Positions 188 through 60,213 of a DNA stretch of 63,638 bases are shown here, in pieces. Where the stretch lies: positions 1 through 63,638 of IMG/VR virus record IMGVR_UViG_3300042884_000572. One strand, 5' to 3'. This DNA is from a virus. Positions within the stretch are counted from its first letter, which is position 1. The number at the start of each line of letters is the position of its first letter. Position numbers and translations under genes: made by a program. The notes beneath the pieces were generated by a model, which was given only the letters and a program-made list of their open reading frames with translations, had not been told where the DNA came from and ran no database searches.

Positions 188-631
188 TTAACAATAAGGG
201 GGGGAACATTTTTTCTTTCCGTCTAATCCTTTGATTTTACCTTTACATACTTGAATGGCGTGGCCATTAGCGTAAGCTGAGGGGTATACGTCATATTTTG
301 ACTTAGCAGATGTCTTACCTCTAGCACAAAGTTTTGTTCCTGTTTTTTTTCTACCTTCCATCATCATATCATCAGAATGATCTTCACCCTCCACTTCATT
401 CATTATAAAATCAAAAACTTGATCCATATTGTTTTTTGCTTCGGCAATATGATCTTGAGCCCAATCATGTCCATGTTCTAATATTTCTTCAATCATTGAT
501 TGATCCATATCTAACAATAAATCACATTGTCTTCTCATTTGTTCTAAATTTGAAAAGAACATATATCTTGAAGATTTTTCTTCGTGAGTTTCTCTAATAA
601 CTTTTCTAATGATTGAGTTTAAATTTTTCAT
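188..631 (-). CDS. small protein with DUF5872-like C-terminus
   Basis: 147 residues. The basic amphipathic N-terminus (MKNLNSIIRKVIRE) is followed by an acidic helical middle (about 20-90) with a Met/Asp-rich patch. The C-terminal 50 residues are basic and contain SKYDVYPSAYANGHAIQVCKG, which resembles from memory the DUF5872-type motif (K/R-x-K-Y-x-V-x-P-S-A-Y-A-x-G) found in phage and algal-virus proteins. Cysteines at the motif and at the extreme C-terminus (PPYC) could bind metal or crosslink. The IRE at the end of the N-terminal helix resembles a T4 prohead-protease site ((I/L)-x-E), so a packaged head protein is possible but unproven. Function unknown. Confidence 0.7.
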   Translation of the reverse strand: MKNLNSIIRKVIRETHEEKSSRYMFFSNLEQMRRQCDLLLDMDQSMIEEILEHGHDWAQDHIAEAKNNMDQVFDFIMNEVEGEDHSDDMMMEGRKKTGTKLCARGKTSAKSKYDVYPSAYANGHAIQVCKGKIKGLDGKKKCSPPYC

Positions 632-4341: not shown

Positions 4342-6244
4342 CTGTTGGTATTGTTATTCCTGCTGGTGTTATGGTTAATGGACCAATTCCAATCGCTACT
4401 TTTCCATTTTCATCTATTTCTTTGGCATTACCATCAATCATCGCTTTTATTGATGCCAAAAATTTATTTGGACTACCGTCTGGCATTGGTCCTGTTGGGA
4501 TACCTAACTCTTCTAAATTTTGAATTGTGTTTAAAAAAGATCTGGTTGGTGAATAACCATCTAAAAGTCTTGCGGATAATAAAAGAGGTAGTGGTAATTC
4601 ACCTCCTGCCGCTGATAATGCATCCAATCGTTTTCTAACACCAATATTTAATAGTTGTAATAATTCATCCAACACACTTTTACATTCTCTAAAATCTTTA
4701 ACAATTTGTGTCAAAGCCGGAATTATAGCAACTATCGATAAAATTATTCTGTATTTCTTTTTTGTTTTTTCATCTGCAATATCCTTTAGAAGTAATGCGA
4801 CTAAAACTTTAATTTCTTTTTTTAATTCATTAAATACTGCTTTAGTGAACATCGCAGCAATTTTAGTTAAAAGTTCGTTGAAAAAGTTTTTAAATCTTTT
4901 TAAAAAATCTTCTAAATTAGATATTTGATCAAATATTGGTTGATTTACCATACCAGCAACAATCATTATAGGTAATACTGTTTTAGGTGATAAAACCGTA
5001 TTTATAATTGCCTTAATAAATTGTTGGAAGAACCCTGCATCGACAGATAACTTAAAAGTTGGGTCTTCATCAATGACAGGATATATAATACCTAAAGCGT
5101 CATTTATTTCATTAACATCAGAAGTATCTTCATTAAATTGTAAATTGTCTAAAGCGGTTAAAACGGCATCTAAATTCATTGGGACTTTTACATTATCACA
5201 ATCTTCAAATTCTAAAACACCTAATTTTATGTCTGAAGTAATTTGATCAATTATTCTTAAATCAACATCGTTAAATTCATAAAACGATTCATCAACATTA
5301 TCAACTTCAGAAACTTTTGATGTCCCTCCGACATTTATTTCTTTATTAGAATCCGAACATAGACCTAATATTCTTTGCATTATTATTAAAGATTTTTGAA
5401 TTGATGATAATTTTAATTTACCATCTCCTCTACCAAATGAAATTGATCCGGTGACATAATCAACCAAGTTGGTAAAAAATGTCTTATAATTTAATATATC
5501 AATAGTTCCATAATAATCATTTAAAAATTCATCAACTAATGCAATATTTTGTCTTGGTTTTAAATCTACTTTAAAAAAATTACCCTGTATTGTTTGAGCA
5601 TTTTGGTCAACATAACTTTCAACATAAGTTATATCAAAAAGATTTTGTTGGGACACCCCAATATAATCGTTCCCCGCCACCGACAAATAACTTTGATTTA
5701 AATTTTGTGTTCGATCATAAAGTTCTCTATTCATTGAGAAAGGAAAAGTTCCGTATAATACGGGTTCTTGTTCAAAAAATAACTTTCCAATTTTATCTGT
5801 GGGTGACGATTCAAAAATCCCAAAAAGATCCACAGATTTTACAGGAATATAATAAGTTGTATTAAATTGATAATCTTGTAAATTACTACACGCAAGAGAT
5901 TTTTGAACCTCTTCTATTATAAGATTTTTTATTTCAGGTTTAGTTTTTTTTAAAGAATTAACAAAAATTCTTTTTATTAACGTATCAGTTTCTAAACCAG
6001 AACCCTTCAATTCTTTGAGTTGTGTAATCAGCTCATCTAAAAAAGTTTTAGGATTTGTGGTGTGTTTTTTTCTGTATTTAACAAAATCACTTAATTGATT
6101 TGATAAAAATTTGTTTGCAGTTTCTTGTGAATCACCGGCCTTTTTCTTAAGTTCATCATAGTCCTGCTTATATTGTTTATATTTTTTATAAACATTTGTT
6201 TTATTAGCCGCTTTTTTTAAATCTTCATTAATATCAACTGCCAT
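4319..6244 (-). CDS. large baseplate-region virion protein
   Basis: 641 residues, not matched to a named family. The first 120 residues are Lys-rich and helical (KKYKQYKQDYDELKKKAG). The middle (about 120-330) is mixed alpha/beta. The C-terminal half is helical with hydrophobic stretches TVLPIMIVAGMVNQPIFDQI and IILSIVAIIPALTQIV, which could be membrane-active or buried in an oligomer. A Gly/Pro-rich tail follows (GPLTITPAGITIPTDAYGKF). It sits directly upstream of the gp5-like gene in an operon, which suggests a tail hub or wedge subunit or an injected protein. Confidence 0.65.
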   Translation of the reverse strand: MAVDINEDLKKAANKTNVYKKYKQYKQDYDELKKKAGDSQETANKFLSNQLSDFVKYRKKHTTNPKTFLDELITQLKELKGSGLETDTLIKRIFVNSLKKTKPEIKNLIIEEVQKSLACSNLQDYQFNTTYYIPVKSVDLFGIFESSPTDKIGKLFFEQEPVLYGTFPFSMNRELYDRTQNLNQSYLSVAGNDYIGVSQQNLFDITYVESYVDQNAQTIQGNFFKVDLKPRQNIALVDEFLNDYYGTIDILNYKTFFTNLVDYVTGSISFGRGDGKLKLSSIQKSLIIMQRILGLCSDSNKEINVGGTSKVSEVDNVDESFYEFNDVDLRIIDQITSDIKLGVLEFEDCDNVKVPMNLDAVLTALDNLQFNEDTSDVNEINDALGIIYPVIDEDPTFKLSVDAGFFQQFIKAIINTVLSPKTVLPIMIVAGMVNQPIFDQISNLEDFLKRFKNFFNELLTKIAAMFTKAVFNELKKEIKVLVALLLKDIADEKTKKKYRIILSIVAIIPALTQIVKDFRECKSVLDELLQLLNIGVRKRLDALSAAGGELPLPLLLSARLLDGYSPTRSFLNTIQNLEELGIPTGPMPDGSPNKFLASIKAMIDGNAKEIDENGKVAIGIGPLTITPAGITIPTDAYGKFI

Positions 6245-6250
6245 AATAAA

Positions 6251-6622
6251 TTATTTTTTCATTTTATATGAACCATCACTACTAATGTCTTTTTTTAATA
6301 AATTTTGAAATGTTTCGTCATCTAAATCTAAGTCTGAAAGAGTGAAATCTTCTTCTTTTTCTGTATTTTTTTGCCACATAGTAGATTGTAGTTTAGATAA
6401 TGTTAATTTTTTCTCAACACAATCATTAATAATTTTTTGTTGTTTTTCAATGACAGGACCAATAAGAGTCATATCTTCAGGTTCTTTCATCATCGTCAAC
6501 ATTTTATTTTGGATTCTAATTGCCGTATTTCTTTGTTCCACAAGTTCGTTATAGATTTCTTGCATCAAAGACAACATGGATTCTTTGGATAAGTTAATTT
6601 CTTTTTTTGGTGGTCTTGGCAT
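6251..6622 (-). CDS. small helical protein beside the sigma factor
   Basis: 123 residues. The basic N-terminus (MPRPPKKEI) is followed by two long helices (about 12-95) and an acidic tail with DFTLSDLDLDDETFQNLLKK. Size, acidic C-terminus and position just downstream of the sigma-like gene are reminiscent of late-transcription co-activators such as T4 gp33 (112 residues), which end in a sliding-clamp-binding hydrophobic/acidic motif. That link is speculative. It could equally be a tail-assembly chaperone because baseplate genes follow. The ATG lies four bases from a TATTTATA box. Confidence 0.6.
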   Translation of the reverse strand: MPRPPKKEINLSKESMLSLMQEIYNELVEQRNTAIRIQNKMLTMMKEPEDMTLIGPVIEKQQKIINDCVEKKLTLSKLQSTMWQKNTEKEEDFTLSDLDLDDETFQNLLKKDISSDGSYKMKK

Positions 6623-6634
6623 AATATATAAATA

Positions 6635-7378
6635 TTAGTTTTTAAGTAATTCTTGAACTAACTCAAAATACAACTTTTTATATTTTTTAATTGAATTTCT
6701 TATTTCTTTAGTGGATAGATTAGTCATCTCCCTAAGTTCAAATAAAATAATATTTTTGTTAAATTTGTTATTATTTGTGTCAGGAAATATAGTTCCATAA
6801 TTCTCAAACAAATCACATATTGCTGATCCTAATTTATGTTCTTGCTCATTACATTCGCTATCATCAAGATCTTGTTTTAGTTTTTCTAAAAACTTTTTGA
6901 TCACATATTCAGAACTCAAATCGTCATTATCAATTACGTATGACATTTCAGTTCTATTAGTAAGATCTGAAGAAATATCTTCATAAGAAATCTTTCTGTT
7001 CATTTCCTTTTGGTCTTTCATAATCTGACCCATAAGGTAATTTTTACAAATAGTCCCTAAGTATGAATACGCTTTCTTTTCTTTTGAAGGTTTAAATTTT
7101 TCAATCTTCGTCATCAAAAACGAATGAGTGTCGATATGTATTTCTTCATAATCCATATCTTTTCTATATAATTTATATCTTCTAATAATAGAAGATATCA
7201 TCTTATCTAAAGGATCTTTTAAAAACTCATTATATATTTTGTTACGTTCTTCAAAAGTTTCGGCCGTAAGAAAGTTTCTCACGGCCTCTTCTTCTCTTAC
7301 ATCAAAATAATTGTTAGTTGTTGGTTTACGTCCTTTCTTTTTCTTTTCTACCGATATTTCTTCACCACTCCCTAACAT
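6635..7378 (-). CDS. T4 gp55-like RNA polymerase sigma factor for late genes
   Basis: 247 residues. A sigma region-2-like block lies at about 55-130: helices before FKPSKEKKAYSYLGTICKNY, then LMGQIMKDQKEMNRKISYED. This is the pattern of region 2.2-2.4 in sigma-70-like proteins and T4 gp55. The C-terminal 60 residues (NLSTKEIRNSIKKYKKLYFE) look helix-turn-helix-like, so a region 4 equivalent may exist; T4 gp55 (185 residues) lacks a full one. The N-terminus is basic (KKKKGRKP). It would direct host RNA polymerase to phage late promoters, probably the TATTTATA boxes seen here. Confidence 0.7.
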   Translation of the reverse strand: MLGSGEEISVEKKKKGRKPTTNNYFDVREEEAVRNFLTAETFEERNKIYNEFLKDPLDKMISSIIRRYKLYRKDMDYEEIHIDTHSFLMTKIEKFKPSKEKKAYSYLGTICKNYLMGQIMKDQKEMNRKISYEDISSDLTNRTEMSYVIDNDDLSSEYVIKKFLEKLKQDLDDSECNEQEHKLGSAICDLFENYGTIFPDTNNNKFNKNIILFELREMTNLSTKEIRNSIKKYKKLYFELVQELLKN

Positions 7379-17416: not shown

Positions 17417-17797
17417 TTAAAAAACTGCATTTATAAACATCCTTTCCATACTTTTATCACCATTAGGATTGTAGTTAGGTCTTGGTGTGTCAAATGTTTC
17501 TTGAGTTGGTCTTATAAAGTTAATTTTGTCAACTCTAAAAAATCTCCAACTTGGCAATGGTTTTTTTCCTAAATAAGCCCTGTGTGAAGCTCCTTCTCTA
17601 TCCCACGCCCTTAAAACAGCATTACCTTTTTTACTTAAACCAAAGGCGACGGGTTCAATAACTCTTAATCCTCTACCACCTGGTTCGTCACCTTCGTAAT
17701 AAATAACACAAACCCTTCTATCTCTAATAGCATTATAAATTTGGTCTCTAGATGCTACTTCCAATATAAGTTGATTAAATGTGTTGTAAAGTTTCAT
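17417..17797 (-). CDS. stand-alone WYL-like domain protein
   Basis: 126 residues. The central part (about 17-96) has the WYL layout: a helix, then VCVIYYEGDEPGGRGLRVIE, then PVAFGLSKKGNAVLRAWD, then WRFFRVDKINF. This equals the strand pattern of WYL domains ending in R-x-F-R-x-D-R-I. WYL domains usually sit in regulators with a winged helix and sense ligands or nucleic acid. Here there is no DNA-binding domain, so it may be a ligand or nucleic-acid sensor or a co-opted structural protein. Starts on the last base of the upstream stop. Confidence 0.6.
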   Translation of the reverse strand: MKLYNTFNQLILEVASRDQIYNAIRDRRVCVIYYEGDEPGGRGLRVIEPVAFGLSKKGNAVLRAWDREGASHRAYLGKKPLPSWRFFRVDKINFIRPTQETFDTPRPNYNPNGDKSMERMFINAVF

Positions 17798-54695: not shown

Positions 54696-55823
54696 TTAAA
54701 TAACGTATATTTGACGAGGCATTGCTCTAAACTTTAATTGTTTGTTAAGATTTTCTGCTAATAGTGCTTCACGCTCCATTACTTTTTCAGGACGAAGTCT
54801 TGTTAATCTTCCTTCTGCACCAATTAACTCTTCCAGAAGTTTAGCCTTTTCGTCTTTTCCTTCGGTCGCCATTGTGGTGTAATCCATTGTAAGATCACCA
54901 TCAGGAGTTTTTAGGTTTCCACTAAACTTACCTCTAACACGAGCTAATGTTTCTTTACAATAAGCAACAAACCATTTTCTAACCCAAATTTGTGCGGGAT
55001 TGTTTAATTTTTCCCAAGACATTTTATTAAAAGGAACATCTGAAGGTAATAAAATAATATCAGGATTATCCGCTAAACACTTATCTCTATCTCCTTGTGA
55101 CGTATCATAATACCAATACCAAACTTGACCTTGGGCCAATTCCGAATTTCCGAAATCAAACTTACCTCCAGGGGTATTTAAAAGGTGTAACGCTTTTTTA
55201 CCACCAGGAAGTGCTGTGATATAATATGTCAATTCACCCGCAAATATTCTTCTTTGTATGTTAACTTCTTGCATTCTTAATAATGTATCAAATACTGGTG
55301 TTAAATAATAACTTCCTGCCATGTTACCAATTTGAGCAAGACCTCCACCACCACCTAAACCAGTTCCATTACCAACTCCGGCAAAACCACCTAAACCAAA
55401 CAATAAATTATTAAGGGTTGTTGGGGTGAACCATAAAACTTCATTAATTTCACGACCTGCCGGTATTTCGTAAATTTGTTGATTAGGAACTAATTGTATG
55501 TAATCTTTTTTAATTTCCCAATCACCTCCGGCTTGTAGACCAACTATTTTAGAATATGCATAAGTATAACGAGTTTCAAAATCTAAACTTTTGGTTATGA
55601 AAGCTCGAGATAAAGATTGAGTATCAAGATTTAAGTTATACAATGATGTCCATTGTGATTCTATTAACCAATCCTGAACATATTGAGAATAATCATCAAT
55701 AGAATATTCAAGTAAAGTATCCATCATTTCATCCTCTAATTCTACAGATCTTAAAGGTGCTCCAAGTAAATGTCTAACTTTTTGATAGAACTGACTTCTT
55801 TCCGGTTCGCTAATTATTGCCAT
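54696..55823 (-). CDS. neck protein-like virion protein (gp13 candidate)
   Basis: 375 residues. The N-terminus SQFYQKVRHLLGAPLRSVEL and EDEMMDTLLEYSIDDYSQYV form a helical head typical of neck/connector proteins that match the capsid vertex. A Gly-rich loop lies at about 140-165 (GGFAGVGNGTGLGGGGGLAQ). The C-terminal region WVRKWFVAYCKETLARVRGK is also typical of large-phage head-completion proteins. Position near other neck- and tail-completion-like genes supports gp13, but sequence identity to T4 gp13 is not evident by eye. Confidence 0.5.
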   Translation of the reverse strand: MAIISEPERSQFYQKVRHLLGAPLRSVELEDEMMDTLLEYSIDDYSQYVQDWLIESQWTSLYNLNLDTQSLSRAFITKSLDFETRYTYAYSKIVGLQAGGDWEIKKDYIQLVPNQQIYEIPAGREINEVLWFTPTTLNNLLFGLGGFAGVGNGTGLGGGGGLAQIGNMAGSYYLTPVFDTLLRMQEVNIQRRIFAGELTYYITALPGGKKALHLLNTPGGKFDFGNSELAQGQVWYWYYDTSQGDRDKCLADNPDIILLPSDVPFNKMSWEKLNNPAQIWVRKWFVAYCKETLARVRGKFSGNLKTPDGDLTMDYTTMATEGKDEKAKLLEELIGAEGRLTRLRPEKVMEREALLAENLNKQLKFRAMPRQIYVI

Positions 55824-55852: not shown

Positions 55853-57997
55853 TTAGATAATTATTTTGTTTAACTCTTTTTTATAGAAATTTATCATCTC
55901 AGAAATTTCAATATTTTCACCACCCAATTCTTTTATTTTATCTGTAAAATATTTAATTCTATCTCTATAAAATTCAATTTGTTTATTAACATCTTTTGAT
56001 ATGAATTGTTTTACAGGTGCTTTTTGTGTTTCTTTTTGTAATGGAACTTTAAAGTTACTTTGAAGTGGCATTTCATAATAATATATATAATATGGTGGAT
56101 TTCTTCTTGAGGTGCTTACCGTTAAAATTTTACTATAATCGTTTCTAAACATGATGTATTTTTGTTCTGCTCTATCAACATACAAAATTATATCAACATT
56201 TTCTTCTTTATATTTTTTGTTTGTGTGCCAAGATTCCACCTTAAAATAATATCCCCTATCTCCACCATCAAAAAATTCAATATGATTAAGGCTATTTGTA
56301 AAAGGTTTGACTTGGAAATAAATTGTGTCTCCTCCTTTAATTTTTAAAACTATATCTTGACCTTTTTTTCTATCATTAATATCTCCCGAACAATGTTCAT
56401 ACAACTCATAAGTCATACCTTCTTCATCAGGATTTAATTTATATATTTGTCGAATAATACTTGTTGCATAATTTTCATTCTCTTTACCAACTTCTATTGT
56501 CCCAACGTTTATTTCCGCCAAACGATCTAAATACATTCCTTCATTTGCGAAAAGGTCATAAGCATGTTCTTTAATCCATGTTTTAAAATCTGTTAACCCT
56601 TCAGTTTCTTCTAACCAAATGTTATATATTTCTTTTTTAACTTTACTATTGGTATCAAAACGATTGACGATAGACCATTGACTTGTTCCTCCGTGTTTTT
56701 TTTCTGCATAATCACCACCTAAAATACCAACATCTGTGGTGCATTTTTTTGTTTGGATTCTACCTATACAACCATTTTTATATTGTTTACCAAGACAACC
56801 TACATATTGTGAATTAATTAAATCTCTTAATTGTTTTGGTGTGTATGGAAATGCGAAAGTTGTGCTAATTTCATTTATAATTTCTTTAGACTCAACACTC
56901 TCTTTAATATTTTCTTTTTTTGTCTTTGACAAATATAAATCGTTTACAAACTCCCAATTAACAACATCCCAAAATTTTGAAATGTATTCATCTCTTTTGT
57001 TTTGATATTTTAAATAATATGCATGTTCCCAAACATCAAGACCCAACAATGGAAATCCACCTTTTTTAACAACATTCATAAGTGGGTTGTCCTGATTTGG
57101 AGTTGACATTATTTTTAATTTTCCATCTTTTGATAGATACAACCACGCCCATCCTGAACCAAAACGATCTTTTGCCGCTTGATTAAATTCGTCTTTTAGT
57201 TTTTTTATGTTACCAAAATCTTTTTTAATCTTTTCATATATTTCACCATGAGGTCGTTGTTTTTTTGGAGACAACATTTTCCAAAATAATGCATGGTTAA
57301 AAGCTCCTCCTGCGTTATTTCTAACTTTATTATCGTATTTACTGATTGTTTTAATAATGTCTTCCAATTCTAAATCACCTTCCTTATCTTTTAACGCATC
57401 GTTCAATTTATCAACATAACCTTTGTAGTGTTTGTTGTAGTGAACGTTCATTGTTTTAGAATCAATAAACCGAGATAAAGAAGAATATGAATAAGGTAAT
57501 TTTTCAATACCTATTTTTTTCATTTCAACCAACAAATTATTTTTGGTTTCAATTTTTTGTTCTAATAAAATTTGAGTTTCTAAAATTAAAAGTTTGTTAT
57601 TGATTCCTTTATGCTCATACATTAATTGTTCCATTTCAGGATTTTCTTTTTCAAACATTTTAATAAGTCGTCCTGCAAAAGCATTTGCTTCATCTTCATT
57701 TTGACCACCAATGTCTGGACCTTTTTTTCTTTTTAAAACATCCATTTGGTGTTCATGAACCCACTCATGTGCTAAGGTTCTCATAATATCTCTATTCATA
57801 CGATCACCAACCAAGACCTTAATTGTATTATCAGTTCTTCTACTACCTGTAGACATTTCACCTTCTTGTTGATTTAAAAAAAATACTTTGACATCGTTCT
57901 TCAAAGGAAATTCACGTTGCAGAAGTTCAATAAACTTATTGATGAAGTTGGTATATTTTTTAAAATTTTTACTTTCTATATTCAGACTTACCTTCAT
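55853..57997 (-). CDS. HExxH metallopeptidase / Mn-type superoxide dismutase / nuclease-like fusion
   Basis: 714 residues. Residues 1-125 are a small zinc peptidase-like domain: TLAHEWVHEHQ (His77-Glu78, His81), with a likely third ligand at Glu100/Glu103 in the downstream helix (NEDEANAFAGRLI). Residues about 165-360 are a complete Fe/Mn superoxide dismutase: MNVHYNKHYKGYV (His186), NNAGGAFNHALFW (His235), DRFGSGWAWLYLSKDGKL, STPNQDNPL (Gln302) and DVWEHAYYLKYQ (Asp321, His325). Gly before FNH and Gln302 point to the Mn type. Residues 366-714 are unknown; GQDIVLKIKGG then IYFQVKPF could be a PD-(D/E)XK-like site. LLVE at 155-158, just before the dismutase, resembles a prohead-protease site. 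SOD would remove superoxide during infection. Confidence 0.85.
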   Translation of the reverse strand: MKVSLNIESKNFKKYTNFINKFIELLQREFPLKNDVKVFFLNQQEGEMSTGSRRTDNTIKVLVGDRMNRDIMRTLAHEWVHEHQMDVLKRKKGPDIGGQNEDEANAFAGRLIKMFEKENPEMEQLMYEHKGINNKLLILETQILLEQKIETKNNLLVEMKKIGIEKLPYSYSSLSRFIDSKTMNVHYNKHYKGYVDKLNDALKDKEGDLELEDIIKTISKYDNKVRNNAGGAFNHALFWKMLSPKKQRPHGEIYEKIKKDFGNIKKLKDEFNQAAKDRFGSGWAWLYLSKDGKLKIMSTPNQDNPLMNVVKKGGFPLLGLDVWEHAYYLKYQNKRDEYISKFWDVVNWEFVNDLYLSKTKKENIKESVESKEIINEISTTFAFPYTPKQLRDLINSQYVGCLGKQYKNGCIGRIQTKKCTTDVGILGGDYAEKKHGGTSQWSIVNRFDTNSKVKKEIYNIWLEETEGLTDFKTWIKEHAYDLFANEGMYLDRLAEINVGTIEVGKENENYATSIIRQIYKLNPDEEGMTYELYEHCSGDINDRKKGQDIVLKIKGGDTIYFQVKPFTNSLNHIEFFDGGDRGYYFKVESWHTNKKYKEENVDIILYVDRAEQKYIMFRNDYSKILTVSTSRRNPPYYIYYYEMPLQSNFKVPLQKETQKAPVKQFISKDVNKQIEFYRDRIKYFTDKIKELGGENIEISEMINFYKKELNKIII

Positions 57998-58452: not shown

Positions 58453-60213
58453 TCACCTTTTATTAATTAGATTTAATATTTCTTCAGCAACATCACCAAC
58501 ATTTTCAGGTATTTGATCACCCATTACTGTTCTAATGATTTCTTTCTTTTTGTTTAGTATGTCATAAATAGCACCTTCTATGGTGTTTTCGAATAAAGGG
58601 TAATAAACTAAAACATTTGATTTTTGACCATAACGATACGCCCTATCTTCCGCTTGTGCGTGTTCTGCAGGAACAAATGATAAGTCGTTCATAATTACAA
58701 CCTCAGCTGAAGTTAATGTTAAACCAACACCTGCCGCTTTTAAATTACCAACAAAAACTCTGATTTTTTCGTCGTTCTGAAATGAATCGACAGCTTGTTG
58801 ACGAACAGAATTAGAACAACTACCGTCAAGATAAACAGCTTGTTTTCCAAAATGATTATACATTGTTTGAAGTGAATCCGTAAAGTTTGTAAAAATAATA
58901 ACTTTTTTTCCTTGTTCTAAAATGTTTTCCGCAAACTCAATAGTTTGTTTTGTTTTTTCGTTTGCAATTACTTTTCGAACTTTCATAAGTTTTGAAAACT
59001 GAACTGTAAGTGATGAAGATTCTTCAGGGTTTTTATCATACCAATCGTAGTATTCGCCCATAAGATTTTCATATTCAGAAGATTTCAATCTCAAATAAAC
59101 AGGTGTAATAATTTTGTCAGGTAAATCTAAAACTTCTTCTTTTAATCTTCTTAGAATTTGTTTTGACGTTCTATCTCTTAATTCTTCTAAATTGGATGCT
59201 CCTGAAACATTCCAAACTTTTCTTTTACCAGCATTAAATTGATAACCCTGACAATAACGAATCGCATAAGCCATCCAATTTTGAGCAACAGGACTTTCAA
59301 TGATACTTAAAAGATTATAATAATTCATAGGTCGAGATGTCATCGGTGTTCCCGTCAACAACCAAACCTTATCGATGTTTTTAACATAACTATTAATTAT
59401 CTTTGTCCTTTGAGCTTGAGCGTTTGATATCATATGTGCCTCATCCAAAATAACAAGATCAAAATTAGATTTTTCTAATAATGAATTTTCTTTGTCTTTT
59501 GGATCGTGGAAGTTTTTTAATATATCATAATTTACGATAACAAAATCGTAATCCGTAGAAAACTTCTTTCCTTCCGCAATAAAAGTTGGTCGATCAGAAT
59601 AGTTTTCAATTTCTCTTTGCCAATTTATTTTTAAAGATGCGGGACAAATTATTAAAATCTTTTTTGCACCTGTCTCAAGTGCGGCAATAATTGTTGATGT
59701 AGTTTTACCAAGTCCCATATCATCGGCCAAAATAAATCTTTTTGATCCTGCCAATTTTTCAATCGCAACTTTCTGATGATTTAAAGGTGGTCGATGCGAA
59801 TATTTAGAATAATCAATATCAACACTTTTTACATTATGTGTTTTTATTAAAGCAGATTTAGGAACCCAAAACTCTGATAATTTATCTTTTTCAAAAAACT
59901 TACCCCAAACATGATAAGATTTTTCCTTTTCAACCAATAGTTTTTCAACATAGATTTCTTTTGGTGTTTCTATCAAGTATCTTTCTTCTGCAAACTTTTT
60001 AGCGAAGTAAGTGTCTAATTCAACCCATTTTCTTGCAACTTTTGGTTTTGTCTCAAAATAAGTTAAAATATAATCGGCTTGAGTTCGTGTTGGGAAAAAC
60101 TTTTTTGATGATTCTTTTTTTTCTTTTAGATATAATATATAGTTGTTGGCACCACTATAGGTGTCAAGAACATCAAGTGCTTTATGTTCGATAAGAGTTT
60201 TTAAATCTCCCAA
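58453..60213 (-). CDS. SNF2-family helicase (SMARCAL1-like)
   Basis: 586 residues. The start codon is TTG at 60213; an in-frame stop lies upstream with no ATG between. Motifs: HQKVAIEKL (Q-like), ADDMGLGKTTS (Walker A, about 163-173), ILIICPASLKINW, LVILDEAHMIS (DEAH 257-260), WLLTGTPM, IIFTNFTDSL, VGNLKAAGVGLTLTSA and QAEDRAYRYGQ. The set is the full SNF2 ATPase. Length and the N-terminal 140-residue extension resemble annealing helicases of large phages. Likely involved in replication-fork repair or recombination, a role like T4 UvsW. Confidence 0.9.
   Translation of the reverse strand: MGDLKTLIEHKALDVLDTYSGANNYILYLKEKKESSKKFFPTRTQADYILTYFETKPKVARKWVELDTYFAKKFAEERYLIETPKEIYVEKLLVEKEKSYHVWGKFFEKDKLSEFWVPKSALIKTHNVKSVDIDYSKYSHRPPLNHQKVAIEKLAGSKRFILADDMGLGKTTSTIIAALETGAKKILIICPASLKINWQREIENYSDRPTFIAEGKKFSTDYDFVIVNYDILKNFHDPKDKENSLLEKSNFDLVILDEAHMISNAQAQRTKIINSYVKNIDKVWLLTGTPMTSRPMNYYNLLSIIESPVAQNWMAYAIRYCQGYQFNAGKRKVWNVSGASNLEELRDRTSKQILRRLKEEVLDLPDKIITPVYLRLKSSEYENLMGEYYDWYDKNPEESSSLTVQFSKLMKVRKVIANEKTKQTIEFAENILEQGKKVIIFTNFTDSLQTMYNHFGKQAVYLDGSCSNSVRQQAVDSFQNDEKIRVFVGNLKAAGVGLTLTSAEVVIMNDLSFVPAEHAQAEDRAYRYGQKSNVLVYYPLFENTIEGAIYDILNKKKEIIRTVMGDQIPENVGDVAEEILNLINKR

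Follow-up and report, generated by a model that had tools for sequence, protein, structure and literature searches.

Why would a phage gene join a metallopeptidase, a superoxide dismutase (SOD), and a nuclease-like domain in one chain? Such a fusion was proposed in an earlier note for a gene on a 63,638-base virus record in IMG/VR; the whole of this fragment is called the window. The fused gene is real. Its open reading frame (55853-57997; Table 1) begins with ATG, runs for 714 codons without an internal stop, and is found on the minus strand, which the earlier note did not give. The gene is under purifying selection. Compared with relative L007, pairwise dN/dS is ~0.09 for the N module, ~0.07 for the SOD, ~0.14 for the C module, and 0.45 for linker 1. 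Among the three domains, SOD has the lowest dN/dS wherever it is computable for all three, and linker 1 is the fastest-evolving part of the protein in the pairs compared. The SOD lies between the HExxH domain and the C-terminus, as had been claimed, but it is not "inserted" there: a zincin has been attached on its N-terminal side and a nuclease-like module on its C-terminal side, through linkers of ~30 and ~27 residues.

Table 1. Parts of the predicted cargo gene and neighboring genes in the window.
Feature	Residues	Position	Strand	Remarks
Whole gene	714 aa	55853..57997	minus	zincin - linker 1 - SOD - linker 2 - PD-(D/E)XK nuclease-like
N module	1-128	57614..57997	minus	zincin; HEWVH 77-81, E101/E103 invariant
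Linker 1	129-158	57524..57613	minus	LxE x3 (138-140, 144-146, 156-158); predicted cleavage/targeting segment
LLVE/MKK site	LxE 156-158	57524..57532	minus	P1 = E in 58/58 distinct sequences
SOD module	159-358	56924..57523	minus	ligands H186, H235, D321, H325
Linker 2	359-385	56843..56923	minus	IKE (364-366), INE (374-376); predicted cleavage/targeting segment
C module	386-714	55856..56842	minus	PD-(D/E)XK nuclease-like; invariant E508, D548, Q562-x-K564
Head-tail adaptor Ad2-like protein		54696..55823	minus	conserved gene downstream of slot
Conserved protein	115 aa	54345..54692	minus	relatives keep same gene order
Protein of unknown function	142 aa	57999..58427	minus	between helicase and cargo gene
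SNF2-type helicase		58453..60213	minus	conserved upstream boundary of slot

The middle module is a Mn/Fe SOD, whose activity is predicted. The dismutase is complete: all four metal ligands are exactly where the earlier note placed them, and nine diverse phage copies show no change in them or in the residues around them. Both Pfam families match far above cut-off (Sod_Fe_N at 165-243, E 7e-21; Sod_Fe_C at 249-353, E 2e-40). The best phmmer match among solved structures is superoxide dismutase 6gsc (E 3e-65) and many MnSODs come next; most of the closest structures are MnSODs, and the residues fit the Mn type by eye. The nearest cellular SODs found are those of Bacteroidota (Sphingobacterium, 54-55%), but the tree points to no particular donor, and strict patterns were used in the single genome scan. 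Phage SODs were said to be rare. This holds, yet stand-alone SODs are found in PA5oct-like Pseudomonas phages and in Vibrio phage 2.275.O. These belong to the same Mn/Fe SOD family as the fused SOD, but they are 182-189 aa long, unfused, and distant from it in the tree. The record of the stand-alone SOD-like protein of PA5oct (L252, QCG76142.1) has an ESI-MS/MS mark, which suggests that the protein itself was detected.

The AF2 model of the N module (pLDDT 93) matches zincins, which agrees with the metallopeptidase-like domain proposed earlier. The best match is Wss1 (5xbn; Z 9.9, 108 residues, rmsd 2.9), and other matches include YbeY-like 1oz9 and aminopeptidase cores. The HExxH motif named in the earlier note is H77-E78-W-V-H81. 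Together with the downstream Glu it is strictly conserved, H77, E78, H81, E101, and E103 being invariant in 42 sequences. By sequence, neither the N nor the C module matches a known Pfam or PHROG family above cut-off; when membership of the SprT/WLM (Wss1-like) family was examined, several zincin Pfam families gave no more than weak matches to the N module. Identification of this module as a zincin with a predicted fold closest to Wss1 is supported by the model.

The C-terminus had been described as nuclease-like, and a fold search agrees. Its AF2 model (pLDDT 88) matches XauSPARDA nuclease (Z 7.8), Hjc (Z 7.5), and I-Ssp6803I (Z 7.4), and nearly all the top fold matches belong to the PD-(D/E)XK superfamily. 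These Z values are middling, so that the assignment leans on the catalytic signature as well as on the fold. E508, D548, Q562, and K564 are invariant in 36 sequences and form the catalytic pattern E...D...(E/Q)xK. The model and these residues support a PD-(D/E)XK nuclease-like module. A further module, C', has its own invariant D203...E226-x-K228, which by eye suggests another PD-(D/E)XK-like module. Homology between C and C' was considered and rejected, as hhalign found none (probability 0.2%).

How widely does the fusion exist? In the first IMG/VR scan, 71 loci were found on different contigs, and ~24 of these show the complete architecture (63-100% identity). Using the N and C modules as queries, two later scans added ~160 loci, many of which are on the same contigs. 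When all loci were searched with profiles, 100 ORFs proved to be N-SOD-C, 44 of them distinct, and both frame and gene order are preserved. The search for the same fusion in other phages, as the earlier note proposed, was thus successful in IMG/VR, and the fusion was found in none of 50,697 annotated phage records. In the 28 phage records that match the protein, the match extends little or not at all beyond the SOD part, and some of these records resemble bacterial contamination. In phage records the C module has no match, and the N module has only distant matches, in Synechococcus phages. No phage SOD fusion was found in a literature search, most subscription journals being outside its reach, and no cultured phage carrying a zincin-SOD-nuclease gene was found.

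The modules exist in nine arrangements: N-SOD, N-SOD-C, N-SOD-C', SOD-C, SOD-C-C, SOD-C-C', and each of N, SOD, and C by itself. L199 encodes SOD and C next to each other as two genes. This split and the lone N, SOD, and C genes indicate that each module can stand alone. In the SOD-bearing loci inspected (L031, L055, L060, L061, L063, L064, and L199), the gene slot is bounded by the SNF2-type helicase and the Ad2-like gene as in the window, and the slot is kept among relatives while its content changes. The stand-alone N module is located outside this slot and is without a leader of its own. Stand-alone C copies begin with leaders whose last residues are LxE, as in MKYIFTESQLDILKNKILINE. Linker 2 contains ~100 additional residues, apparently in one or two copies, in N-SOD-C ORFs of 820 and 958 aa; this stretch is bounded by TINE/ILSE motifs and looks like a further insertable module. 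In L025, the same gene is split inside the SOD domain into two ORFs (5001-5573 and 5625-7145), which may be a sequencing error or a decayed copy.

What do the linkers do? LLVE before the SOD had been taken as a hint of cleavage by the prohead protease and of packaging in the head. The window protein has LILE, LLE, and LVE in linker 1 and IKE and INE in linker 2. Among distinct full-length sequences, the site before MKK/AKK (in linker 1 or in the leader of a stand-alone SOD) has Glu at P1 in 58/58 and I, L, or V at P3 in 58/58. At least one LxE-type site is found in 53/53 distinct linkers after the SOD. The density of LxE is 8.1 per 100 aa in linkers vs 1.4 in domains. Linkers retain (L/I)xE while diverging otherwise, so that the cleavage motif of T4-type capsid-targeted cargo is found at the junctions. 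The protein is probably a cargo polyprotein that is packaged in the head and cut by the prohead protease.

An intact multidomain enzyme used only inside the cell, as an auxiliary function against oxidative stress, is a rather unlikely alternative. Its linkers would be flexible spacers, in which LxE is incidental. The linkers are indeed rich in E, K, L, and I, ordinary-length stand-alone SODs exist in other jumbo phages, and packaging is something that we infer. However, LxE sites exceed those of composition-matched shuffles: when linkers <70% alike are used, 97 sites are seen vs 45.5 +/- 5.3 in N-SOD linkers and 69 vs 23.2 +/- 4.0 in SOD-C linkers, and 0/2000 shuffles reach the observed count for either linker, numbers that are inflated and descriptive because the sequences are related by descent. 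The intact enzyme also fits poorly with cases in which SOD and C are two genes and C has a leader, and with a slot that adjoins the head-tail adaptor gene. In BLOSUM similarity to leaders, linker 1 is among the most leader-like parts and linker 2 is not, with modest scores. Since this signal is weak and misses linker 2, the head-cargo reading builds on the LxE motif, on homologues that stand alone, and on synteny.

A candidate for the protease is found in relatives, the listed genes of the window (a 63.6-kb fragment) including no head-gene cluster. Peptidase_S77 (the T4 gp21 family) is above cut-off (E ~1e-24) in relatives G001, G003, G008, and G010. In G001 (272 kb), the gene (184046-184774), which also matches a head maturation protease family, is located beside a T4-type major capsid protein (phrog_138) and a portal (phrog_213). 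Four major capsid proteins of relatives have LINE/A in common at residue 60 (the slash marks the presumed cleavage site); in T4, gp21 removes the 65-residue N-terminus of gp23 (PMC9958956). LINE/A resembles IINE/I of linker 2, implying that by sequence both are the same kind of site, with cleavage itself predicted.

The polyprotein could instead be processed by its own zincin, as proposed for P1 DdrB-type polyvalent proteins (PMC5512222). No domain is commoner in polyvalent proteins than the zincin, which was proposed to process them (PMC5512222), and here HExxH and the following Glu are invariant. Nevertheless, SOD-C, SOD-C-C, and SOD-C-C' are without a zincin and still keep LxE linkers, and the capsid-protein site has the same motif. 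Self-processing is therefore improbable.

Relatives also have leaders in many other genes. In G001, the first residues of 313 genes were compared after pairs with similar bodies were excluded. As many as 63 pairs score at least 45, vs 1 and 1 pairs at two internal stretches used as controls, and ~55 otherwise unrelated proteins form one connected leader group. Leader classes include MKRIIRLTESDLARIVRRVINEE, MKIIITEDQY, MNLQEQIRRILKEE, and MKQFIISEQEKQRILEMH. Regular expressions for the classes match 36 genes vs a mean of 1.0 in shuffled N-termini, the expressions being derived from the same data. Few of the leader-bearing bodies belong to known families; one is a phage lysozyme. The leader genes of G001 (L073-L087) are clustered, mostly at ~18-37 kb and 200-264 kb. 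T4 gp21 also trims short N-terminal peptides of IPI-III and Alt (PMC9958956; PMC7411985). By analogy with T4, the leaders of G001 would target the capsid and may amount to a targeting code used across the genome.

Leaders are likewise common to genes that are otherwise unlike each other (MENFDLKKFLVENKLT...) in a cultured phage of Flavobacterium, vB_FspM_immuto (~160 kb), which has a gp21-type protease and a similar capsid site, IVSE/A. No published virion proteomics for this phage turned up in a literature search, and one 24-aa leader searched in phage records gave no match. In the window, a WYL-domain protein (17417-17797, minus strand; Pfam E 4e-5) begins MKLYNTFNQLILE/VAS, which is leader-like with LxE. 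A 147-aa protein (188-631, minus strand) begins MKNLNSIIRKVIRE, and its G001 relative (177477-177920) is near the major capsid cluster. A 407-aa protein of L074 (4856-6079, minus strand) has a start that resembles glutamine synthetase, by eye only.

Two further alternatives concern the fusion itself. Mn/Fe SODs form stable dimers and tetramers, and the SOD fold could be kept mainly as a scaffold for packaging or oligomerisation, with catalysis irrelevant. Such stable oligomers speak for this idea, but the invariant metal ligands and surroundings and the lowest dN/dS of the three domains speak against it, making it very improbable. Chimeric assembly of separate genes, the error that the earlier note had named as fatal to its claim, is excluded because 44 distinct sequences on many metagenome contigs have the fusion with the reading frame and gene order preserved, and nothing was found in its favor.

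Head packaging with cleavage by the prohead protease, which the earlier note had only hinted at, is now backed by the LxE linkers, the gp21-type protease of relatives, the capsid site, and the leader-bearing stand-alone modules, and is still a prediction. From the domains and motifs present, the following course of packaging, cleavage, ejection, enzyme activity, and protection may be proposed, with the targeting sequences (CTS) and gp21 of T4 as precedent (PMC9958956 and PMC7411985). The gene would be expressed late, as its position beside the head-tail adaptor gene suggests, and targeting segments in the linkers would draw the chain into the prohead core. At head maturation, a T4 gp21-type protease would cut after (L/I)xE in both linkers, giving a zincin (1 to ~140-158), a Mn/Fe SOD (~159-376), and a PD-(D/E)XK nuclease-like protein (~377-714). 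The three enzymes would remain in the head and be ejected along with the DNA into the next host. In this host, the protease and nuclease may act on host or competing macromolecules, and the SOD may remove superoxide arising from the disturbed envelope and respiration at entry. The latter is proposed by likeness to chlorovirus PBCV-1, whose SOD is packaged in the virion and is linked with lower superoxide early in infection (PMC7019647). PBCV-1 A245R is thus a viral SOD in a virion like the proposed cargo SOD; it differs in being a Cu/Zn SOD of a eukaryotic virus encoded by a separate gene, whereas the phage SOD is Mn/Fe and fused.

Comparison suggests that the protein resembles both T4 internal proteins and "polyvalent" proteins and would carry a cargo enzyme unreported for phages in the literature searched. 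In T4, IPI-III and Alt have targeting sequences cut by gp21, and the relatives here likewise have a gp21-type protease, a T4-type major capsid protein, and a portal. Their many proteins with short (L/I)xE leaders are like T4 cargo, and the fusion also has LxE at its module junctions. T4 cargo, however, has one protein per gene and one leader, while here a single chain, which would be packaged, holds several enzymes, one of them a SOD, and has the motif again at each junction. Polyvalent proteins (PMC5512222) combine several unrelated effector-type domains per chain, including zincins, exchange modules, and are likely delivered at infection. The present protein is similar, with at least two unrelated effector-type domains in its chain. 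A word search of that paper (Iyer et al. 2017) found no SOD, and the junctions here differ in carrying prohead-protease-type motifs. The jumbo myovirus SPN3US, whose ejection proteins are processed by gp245, packs numerous proteins in its head and removes the N-terminal propeptides of some of them after xxE, similar to the present proposal (PMC10052503 and PMC7411985), although the gp245 motif is A-X-E vs (L/I)xE here (PMC10052503). No SOD or multi-enzyme polyprotein is found in the passages of these two papers that were covered.

Carriers of the fusion are a family of large freshwater phages. In G001, a bS21 gene (PF01165, E 1e-7; L082:14218-14529, plus strand) is found inside the portal/protease/major-capsid cluster but on the other strand, an arrangement shared with the bS21-bearing phages of freshwater Bacteroidetes (PMC9723584); the likeness is by arrangement. 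Because of this arrangement and because the nearest cellular SODs are from Bacteroidota, the host is likely a member of Bacteroidota. Superoxide is not mentioned in the bS21-phage paper (PMC9723584), nor in the polyvalent-protein and jumbo-phage papers searched.

A wider reading, for and against which the scales are about level, is that T4-related jumbo phages of Bacteroidota, forming a large clade, use a genome-wide leader code to bring dozens of enzymes into the head and encode some of these enzymes as exchangeable polyproteins, which are cut in the head by the prohead protease. One such cassette would deliver an antioxidant enzyme together with a protease and a nuclease, making oxidative defence part of the injected payload. 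If so, a detoxifying enzyme would join the known payloads of phage heads, and superoxide would be a hazard that phages meet at the moment of entry. Packaged proteins of unknown function in jumbo phages could be recognized from the genome sequence itself by leader and LxE, and these phages would hold a natural set of swappable cargo cassettes.
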